This document shows, in pieces, positions 4,082-8,763 of a stretch of DNA of 40,518 bases (its first letter is position 1; each line of letters opens with the position of its first letter). The DNA is from a virus. The stretch covers positions 1 through 40,518 of the IMG/VR virus record IMGVR_UViG_3300009002_000753; one strand, given 5' to 3'. The position numbers and the translations under genes were made by a program. The notes under the pieces were generated by a model. The model did no database searches. It saw only the letters and a list, made by a program, of their open reading frames with translations, and was not told the origin of the DNA.

Positions 4082-4134
4082 AATGTTAGATAATTATTCT
4101 CTTATGTTTATAAATATCGGTGATTTAGCATTTA

Positions 4135-4866
4135 CTAGATTAAGGTCCTATTTCCTTTTCTAGAAAGCCATCCTTTATTTGAATAGTGTTTTATTAATTT
4201 ATTTCTGATGTTCTTATGTTGTGATTGTCTCCATTGGGCTTGATCGTCAGCGCCTCTTTCTCCTAGAGTAAGATCTTGCCATGTCTGTGGGTCTTCCTTA
4301 TCCTTGTCTATAATATAAATAGGTATATTGTTCTTGAATAAACAGTAAGAAAAATGTAAATCTTCTCCTGAGCCTTCTTCTTTTAATTTATCGTAGAGAA
4401 AATGTTGTAAAAGTTCAGTTTTCATAAACCATCCTTGACCGCCCATATCTACTTTTGTTGGTTCTGTTAGAAAATGTTTTGGACCAATTCTCTCTTTTAC
4501 ATCATACAGAGTAGAGTTTGATTTAAAATTAACTCCGTATGTAGCTACTACAACTTTATCATTGTGCTCCTTACTAAAGTTAATACATCTCTCTATGTAC
4601 TTCTCACCAGGTAGTATATCATCATCTACTATAAAAGTATATGGTGTCTTTATATGTAAGGAATTATAGAATCTACCGTAGAGAGAATTAAAATGTTCTG
4701 AGTCATTTTGATAAATTATTGCTGGGTAATTTAAATTGTATCTCCAATTAGATCTCCATATAATCATAATGTCAGAATCTACGGTTTGGTTTTCAATAGA
4801 TTCTATCTGTGAAGGTAGGTAGTCTAGTCTATTTACAACTGATAATACTGTTGTTACTTCTTTCAT
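4135..4866 (-). CDS. Family 2-like glycosyltransferase
   Basis: A 243-residue protein with the GT-A layout: an N-terminal nucleotide-sugar binding strand (VTTVLSVVNRLDYLPSQIES), then the metal-binding motif FIVDDDILPG (Asp81-83), and a later acceptor region with GGQGWFMKTELL and GEDLHFSYCLF, which resembles the ED/W segment of GT2 enzymes. It should transfer a sugar from a nucleotide donor; the acceptor is unknown. Its start overlaps the stop of a second glycosyltransferase by 4 bp, and a 2OG oxygenase follows upstream, so the three act in one transcript. No membrane segment is present, so it is probably cytosolic. Confidence 0.8.
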   Translation of the reverse strand: MKEVTTVLSVVNRLDYLPSQIESIENQTVDSDIMIIWRSNWRYNLNYPAIIYQNDSEHFNSLYGRFYNSLHIKTPYTFIVDDDILPGEKYIERCINFSKEHNDKVVVATYGVNFKSNSTLYDVKERIGPKHFLTEPTKVDMGGQGWFMKTELLQHFLYDKLKEEGSGEDLHFSYCLFKNNIPIYIIDKDKEDPQTWQDLTLGERGADDQAQWRQSQHKNIRNKLIKHYSNKGWLSRKGNRTLI

Positions 4867-8109: not shown

Positions 8110-8270
8110 TTCTGTGTTTTGTTTTTCTGGTATATTTCTTCTTGTTCTTCACTGGCGATGGCATGCGCAGAGCATGGACCCACTCTTGGTAGGTCAACAC
8201 CACTTCCTCCAACTTTACCTCTTTTTTCTCTCTTTTCGTTCCACTCATCACTAAAGTAAATAAATTCCAT
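8106..8270 (-). CDS. Small soluble protein (54 aa)
   Basis: Start placed at ATG 8270, giving MEFIYFSDEWNEKREKRGK. An upstream frame opened by GTG at 8330 would begin inside the terminator hairpin at 8315-8341 and is rejected. The 54 residues are charged, with PRVGPCSAHAIASEEQEE in the middle. Function is unknown. A TATATTGTAG stretch and ATATTTATAATA lie just upstream and may hold the promoter, since the terminator isolates the gene from upstream transcription. Confidence 0.6.
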   Translation of the reverse strand: MEFIYFSDEWNEKREKRGKVGGSGVDLPRVGPCSAHAIASEEQEEIYQKNKTQK

Positions 8271-8314
8271 ACTACAATATACGATTTTTATTATAAATAT
8301 CCAAAGAATAAACA

Positions 8315-8341
8315 ATAAAAAACCCGGCACGTCTGCCGGGC
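8315..8341 (-). terminator. Rho-independent terminator
   Basis: Minus-strand CCCGGCA, a four-base loop and TGCCGGG give a perfect 7-bp GC-rich stem followed by six T. It ends a transcript arriving from coordinates above 8342. Confidence 0.9.
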
Positions 8342-8342
8342 T

Positions 8343-8460
8343 ATTGATGTTAAGAAGTGTACTGCAACCGGATGCAATTAAGATTACCGGAAATTTCTTT
8401 TACGCTCACGGGGTACTTGACGCCGGACTACTCCATACCGACTTTCTTACCTTAACTAAC
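8343..8460 (-). ncRNA. Candidate structured small RNA
   Basis: This stretch is enclosed between two strong minus-strand terminators (8518-8546 and 8315-8341), and no credible gene was found in it on either strand. On the minus strand GTTAAG at 8456-8451 can pair with CTTAAC at 8354-8349, enclosing about 96 nt. Inside, GTCGG can pair with CCGGC, and CCGG boxes flank AATCTTAATTGC. It is noticeably more GC-rich than the intergenic DNA around it. It looks like a short independently terminated RNA. I do not recognise it as a known riboswitch or RNA family, and the pairing was judged by eye. Confidence 0.4.
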
Positions 8461-8517
8461 TTACTACAATATATGAATAATAAAGTTCATATGCAACTAT
8501 ATCACCATATATTTCCC

Positions 8518-8546
8518 AAAAAAAACCCCTCCGTTTCCGGAAGGGC
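8518..8546 (-). terminator. Rho-independent terminator after the histone-like gene
   Basis: Minus-strand CCCTTCCG, loop GAAA and CGGAGGGG form an 8-bp stem with one G-U pair and a stable GNRA-type tetraloop, followed by eight T. It closes the transcript that carries groES, groEL, nadE, the membrane protein and the histone-like gene. Confidence 0.9.
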
Positions 8547-8592
8547 TTGTCAAATTCGCGCGTGGCGACTTCGTCGGAGAGAGAAACGCCCC

Positions 8593-8763
8593 CTACCCCT
8601 TCGTTGCCTCCATATTCGCTTTCTTGTAAGGTGTAATTAATTTTTTAATCTCACCTGCTGCTTTACGAGCTCTTGCTTGTGAAGTCTTTGTACTTCCGCT
8701 ATTATTTTCAGCTAGTACATTAAATTGCTCTGCAATTTGTTCGAATAATTCTTCTTTGTTCAT
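8593..8763 (-). CDS. Histone H1-like (Hc1-type) DNA-binding protein
   Basis: A 56-residue protein starting MNKEELFEQIAEQFNVLAEN and continuing through STKTSQARARKAAGEIKKL to a basic tail. The order acidic helix, then short linker, then [AS]RARKA..EIK.L, matches the Hc1-type H1-like proteins common in Bacteroidota (typical motif GTRARKALQELKK). Such proteins bind and compact DNA. Its ATG overlaps the stop of the membrane-protein gene (ATGA), and a terminator follows 46 bp after the stop. The assignment is from motif memory, so moderate confidence. Confidence 0.6.
   Translation of the reverse strand: MNKEELFEQIAEQFNVLAENNSGSTKTSQARARKAAGEIKKLITPYKKANMEATKG

Follow-up and report, generated by a model that had tools for sequence, protein, structure and literature searches.

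The minus-strand interval that follows the groES-groEL operon in this 40,518-nucleotide stretch of viral DNA (hereafter the window) probably constitutes an accessory small-RNA gene of a T4-like Bacteroidota phage, the product of which would be made by the host polymerase and would likely act in trans. Judged from its sequence, the predicted small RNA (sRNA) is quite probably a stand-alone RNA acting in trans. The unit consists of an insulated promoter, an invariant body of ~111 nt and a terminator, which phages gain or lose as a block, and it would represent a new small family of accessory phage sRNAs, a kind of RNA that is already known. The window (40.5 kb) is a fragment of a T4-like phage, with a groEL that shares 64% identity with the one of Flavobacterium phage immuto; the carrier of the sRNA is a lytic-type, T4-like phage of Flavobacteria-like or Bacteroidota-like bacteria. 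The same region is found in the 156 kb viral contig G001/L003, in which the sRNA and its neighbours are 100% identical to those of the window. Along the minus strand, the genes run groES, groEL, an NAD-synthetase-like gene, a membrane protein gene and a 56-aa gene, followed by terminator 1, the sRNA interval, terminator 2 and a small, unrelated gene that has a promoter of its own; gene names, groEL excepted, were assigned by reading the translations.

Three non-overlapping patterns of 16–18 nt, taken from different parts of the RNA, each retrieved the same five viral contigs, which represent four distinct phages: L003 (the window), L002, L007 (= L026) and L025. The 18-mer GCATCCGGTTGCAGTACA would serve as a marker of the sRNA. 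Conservation, the lack of which the preliminary description of this DNA had named as a refutation, is clear: the RNA body is 94–99% identical in the four phages, whereas their groEL genes are 70–78% identical at the DNA level and 45–55% identical at fourfold-degenerate sites. The body is therefore conserved beyond the background, as expected of a stand-alone sRNA gene. The flanks of the sRNA are syntenic, downstream of groEL, and among ~60 loci with the neighbouring 56-aa gene, the sRNA was present only in the four phages. The covariance model R1 scored 187 bits in the window, and no significant divergent copy was found with a covariance model in 868 kb of related phage DNA.

Two minus-strand terminators had been described, with an RNA filling the whole interval between them. 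Both terminators were found, each as a hairpin followed by a T-run (8548–8523 and 8342–8321), and the extent of the RNA had to be revised, in that a putative promoter overlooked in that description lies within 8516–8462 and the predicted RNA runs from ~8461 to ~8315. Under a strict definition (a perfect stem of at least 6 pairs, at least 5 of them G-C, and 6/8 T), the terminator at 8342–8321 is the sole one on both strands of the window, and ten shuffles contained 0; it is the strongest terminator of the window and provides the intrinsic terminator expected of a stand-alone sRNA gene. Terminator 1 is also present in relatives without the sRNA, such as L109 and L150, and is predicted to insulate the sRNA gene from the upstream groES-groEL operon.

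The predicted promoter of the sRNA, TTG-N20-TATATT at 8496–8468, gives the gene a putative promoter of its own and fits the pattern of the Bacteroidota primary promoter, with TTTG at -33 and TAnnTTTG at -7 (PMC7366714). In the relatives, TTG and TAnnTT are retained in the sRNA promoter despite a diverged spacer. The start of the RNA is placed at ~8461 because of the position of this promoter, and the predicted 5' end is the 5' strand of the closing stem P1. Sites of the form TTG-N19-21-TATATT occur 12 times on the gene strand of the window, versus 3 times on the other strand and 1.3 times in shuffles, often directly ahead of start codons. They form a clear promoter class of the phage (for example, 8304–8276, 2477–2449, 24265–24237 and 15940–15912), and some lie 1–8 nt ahead of an ATG, a spacing that suggests leaderless or nearly leaderless mRNAs.

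Features of the sRNA region, in window coordinates
Feature	Coordinates	Strand	Remarks
Terminator 1, groES-groEL operon	8523..8548	-	hairpin AAGCCCTTCCGGAAACGGAGGGGTTT + T-run
sRNA cassette, promoter + RNA + terminator	8305..8503	-	present or absent as one block
sRNA promoter (predicted) TTGCATATGAACTTTATTATTCATATATT, TTG-N20-TATATT	8468..8496	-	class enriched; signals kept in relatives
Predicted sRNA, ~146 nt	8315..8461	-	start inferred from promoter, end from terminator
P1 5' strand GTTAGTTAAG	8451..8460	-	RNAalifold; pairs with 8354-8346
Hairpin H1, GTCGG-11 nt loop-CCGGC	8422..8442	-	pairing probability 0.85-0.91 in 4/4 sequences
Invariant weakly paired segment AGCGTAAAAGAAATTTCCGGTAATCTTAA	8378..8406	-	candidate interaction region
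Hairpin H3, ATTGCA-TCCGGT-TGCAGT	8361..8378	-	self-complementary CCGG loop
P1 3' strand CTTAACATC	8346..8354	-	RNAalifold
Terminator 2, Rho-independent, of sRNA	8315..8343	-	hairpin AGCCCGGCAGACGTGCCGGGTT + T-run 8342-8321
Next gene's promoter, TTG-N20-TATATT	8276..8304	-	just outside cassette; ATG at 8270

The RNA body is indeed richer in G+C than its intergenic neighbours, as had been noted (0.43, versus 0.24 in the promoter stretch upstream and 0.17 in 8269–8314 downstream), the value for the window being 0.34. The long closing stem that had been proposed stands as a pairing, since GTTAAG (8456–8451) pairs with CTTAAC (8354–8349), and the pairing can be lengthened to GTTAGTTAAG/CTTAACATC if a bulge and a single U-U mismatch are allowed, but with 6 to 9 pairs it is short. 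A stable fold, the absence of which had been named as a further refutation, is partly lacking: the predicted energy of the body was the same as for its dinucleotide shuffles, both in the window and in all three relatives (z 0.15 to 0.84), and a slight surplus of stability that was also seen came from the terminator and an A+T-rich promoter hairpin. Fold stability was rejected as evidence for the sRNA, the z value of the body being about 0. Of the proposal of a stand-alone regulatory or decoy RNA, the stand-alone part is well supported by the promoter, the terminator, the invariant body, the changing downstream genes and the exact presence or absence, whereas the argument from folding fails the shuffle control.

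The RNAalifold consensus of the four sequences contains the closing stem (GUUaGUUAAG/CUUAACaaC), H1, H3 and the terminator. For P1, 97% of the cells are paired in the four sequences, and one compensatory pair (G-C to A-U in L002) was observed. An alternative closing stem, UAAG[A/U]A/U[U/A]CUUA, also shows one compensatory pair. The four sequences thus supply too little covariation for a choice, a single event each for this stem and for P1, which exclude one another. The H1 stem is invariant and therefore offers no covariation test; its loop is TATGGAGTAGT in the window and TAAGGAGTAGT in the relatives. H3 is predicted in the window, L007 and L025 (probability 0.6–0.9), and L002 folds alternatively. 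The segment 8378–8406 has one variable column (alignment A2), and in folds of the single sequences it does not pair strongly in any consistent way.

On the simplest reading, the sRNA would be made early by the host polymerase and act in trans. Host RNA polymerase with its primary sigma factor would transcribe it from TTG-N20-TATATT, yielding an RNA of ~146 nt in which the P1 stem would tie the 5' end to the 3' part. Less certainly, the invariant segments predicted to be exposed and unpaired, namely the H1 loop, the GUAAAAGAAAUUUCCGGUAAUC stretch and the UCCGGU loop, may pair with mRNAs of the host or of competing phages, and thereby alter their translation or stability; the invariant, weakly paired 8406–8378 would be the natural seed candidate. 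Base pairing is the commonest mode for trans-acting sRNAs, and we give it a little less than an even chance of being the mode of action here.

The target search, confined to phage ORFs, used the duplex energy at start codons with shuffled-RNA controls, and among 531 phage ORFs in five contigs, it found nothing significant near start codons except the RNA's own antisense. One match of 18/19 positions, inside a coding region of G001 (81169–81187), involves a variable part of the RNA and was rejected as being at chance level. In addition, the RNA stretch GUAAAAGAAAUUUCCGGUAAUCUUAAUUGC is complementary at 27/30 positions to about codons 4–13 of a 33-aa membrane-peptide-like gene of other phages (L006, L011, L013 and others); a complementarity of this extent is expected, by estimate, once or twice per collection after 16-mer seeding and is a weak lead.

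Rfam, applied at gathering and permissive thresholds to the window and eight relatives, returned nothing relevant; at the gathering threshold, it found one tRNA elsewhere in the window, and the best local match by E-value was PsrR1, at 19.9 bits versus a threshold of 42. INPHARED phage records gave only short chance matches. A 21-mer of the sRNA had 0 matches in 84,980 bacterial genomes, and the 18-mers had four bacterial matches, about the number expected by chance in 257 Gb, none of which the covariance model supports. In the literature searched, neither an RNA of this sort from Bacteroidota phages nor any sRNA family for T4-like Bacteroidota phages was described.

The main rival to a base-pairing sRNA is a protein decoy, the folded body of which would sequester a host protein, such as the polymerase, an RNase, an RNA-binding regulator or a defence component. 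Conservation that spans all 111 nt of the body, beyond a short seed, is consistent with a decoy, as is the outcome of the target search in the phage contigs. However, no tandem or multiple short repeats, as in ToxI-like antitoxin mimics or CsrB-type decoys, were found within the sRNA, and Rfam shows no likeness to 6S or other decoys. We consider the protein decoy unlikely. It is unlikely, too, that the sRNA is an accessory inter-phage or anti-host weapon, exchanged horizontally and silencing genes of hosts or competitors; we place no higher the accompanying idea that the site after the groEL operon is a hotspot, with sister phages carrying other RNA cassettes or none.

The presence or absence of the cassette is exact in close pairs of phages. 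Between the window and L109, identity is 85% as far as 8504 and 84% from 8304 onwards, and L109 has 46 bp in place of the window's 199 bp promoter-RNA-terminator block. Essentially the same was observed for L025 and L160/L161: identity is 97.4% through the end of the upstream element and 94.6% beyond the sRNA terminator, and the site measures 328 bp in L025 versus ~21 bp in L160. These results indicate that the sRNA is accessory and is gained or lost as a unit. Such sharp presence or absence between nearly identical flanks, together with 98% identity between the window and L007 in the promoter stretch, points to recent exchange, and would also be expected of a mobile or recombination cassette without RNA function, the identity of which reflects recent spread between phages. 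Part of the identity of the cassette may have come from recent exchange, but the substitutions are uneven: 9/111 columns are variable in the body and 1/26 in the stem and T-run of terminator 2, versus 15/38 in the promoter (Fisher p 2.7e-5 against the body) and 4/6 in the linker, and the promoter and terminator signals are retained despite spacer divergence. Because the body varies less than the promoter and linker, the pattern reflects constraint on the RNA, beyond any effect of recent transfer. The substitution pattern inside the cassette thus argues for selection, and a cassette without RNA function is quite unlikely.

A cis-acting, riboswitch-like leader or attenuator of the following gene would account for the layout, in which a structured body and a terminator precede a gene. 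However, the gene 3' of the sRNA varies among relatives (MEFIYF..., MSDSIKKYN... or, in L025, an apparently convergent gene) and is not the constant downstream gene of a cis-regulatory leader or riboswitch, so the sRNA is not read as a leader. In the window and L002, moreover, the following gene has its own TTG-N20-TATATT-type promoter 3' of the sRNA terminator (8304–8276 in the window), and would therefore be independent of read-through from the sRNA. The terminator is kept in 4/4 phages, and there is no conserved anti-terminator. An attenuator is thus very improbable. A small peptide, encoded on the RNA strand or the opposite strand, is hardly credible: the longest ORF over the interval, a 98-codon antisense frame at 8344–8640 (+) that overlaps the sRNA, is interrupted by a stop in L007 and in L026, which is nearly identical to L007, and the sense ORFs are at most 21 aa long and unconserved, so that, in agreement with the preliminary description's finding of no credible gene between the terminators and as expected of a stand-alone sRNA gene, neither strand has a conserved ORF.

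The region following the groEL operon stands out as one in which these phages carry non-coding elements. Just upstream of the sRNA region, directly after the 56-aa gene, the window has a second hairpin element (8593–8552, minus strand), with the consensus GGGGGCG-UUU-CUCUCUC-[NNNC GAA GNNN]-CCACGCGC[G/A]AAUUU. This element also occurs elsewhere in T4-like Bacteroidota phages, in 1–2 copies per contig (five scanned), some of them just before start codons; its carriers are L002, L007, L025, L031 (immuto), L033, L041, L043, L051, L052, L055, L066, L070, L074, L098, L129, L163, L176 and others. Its hairpin covaries (CGAC/GTCG, CACC/GGTG, CTCC/GGAG, CGCC/GGCG and CCAC/GTGG), 36/36 genuine copies pair, and it is absent from Rfam.

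For L025, an insert of ~100 nt closed by AAAGAGGU/ACCUCUUU (oriented ~4120–4225) lies just before terminator 1, between the GACACGCGC element and the terminator, and is absent in L160/L161; it is possibly a further RNA, with a fold no better than shuffles. For L152 and L154, a different, GC-richer non-coding stretch of ~200 nt that ends in CACCCCGCAAGGGGTGTTT occupies the same site, ~50–250 nt downstream of the 56-aa gene homologue, with no Rfam match. For L002 and L156, the 56-aa gene is directly followed by a tRNA-3'-half-like sequence, GGTTAGGGGTTCGATTCCCCTTTCC, in which ARAGORN calls no tRNA, and then by an inserted lipoprotein-like gene. In place of the sRNA, L109, L175 and L180 have a brief sequence in common, of the type TTG-CAAAAGTAAGAAATAGTCTG-TATAGGGGA-CCTTCCGGAAA, which may be a promoter or what is left of a cassette.

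Few stand-alone small RNAs are on record for large phages of the lytic type, and Bacteroidota hosts are abundant in aquatic samples. The cassette is small and insulated, and phages that are up to 97% identical nearby differ naturally in whether they have it, so that the function of the sRNA is testable with natural or engineered pairs.

Among known systems, RNAC and RNAD of phage T4 sit in the T4 tRNA cluster; their sequences were compared via Rfam only, with no match. They are small RNAs of unknown function with late expression (PMC9697503). The sRNA described here resembles them as a non-coding small RNA of a large T4-like phage, but differs from these late RNAs in its own host-type promoter and its position downstream of groEL with no tRNA nearby. 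IsrK, AgvB, AsxR, c4, sas and STnc6030 are prophage-encoded trans-acting or antisense sRNAs; they control mRNAs of the host or the phage, or further sRNAs, and some take part in superinfection exclusion (PMC12197685). Those sRNAs belong to temperate enterobacterial phages and have known targets, whereas the present one belongs to a large T4-like phage of Bacteroidota-like hosts. ToxI-type RNAs consist of tandem repeats, which are absent from the sRNA here. What the sRNA shares with the ToxI mimic of phage phiTE, a phage-borne RNA decoy (PMC3475682), is that, being made by a phage, it could titrate a component of host defence. In Bacteroides thetaiotaomicron, GibS and other intergenic sRNAs have been described (PMC7366714). 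GibS is likewise a stand-alone sRNA, from a phylum with TAnnTTTG-type promoters, and is also relatively unfolded; it is encoded by the host, whereas the sRNA described here is encoded by a phage.
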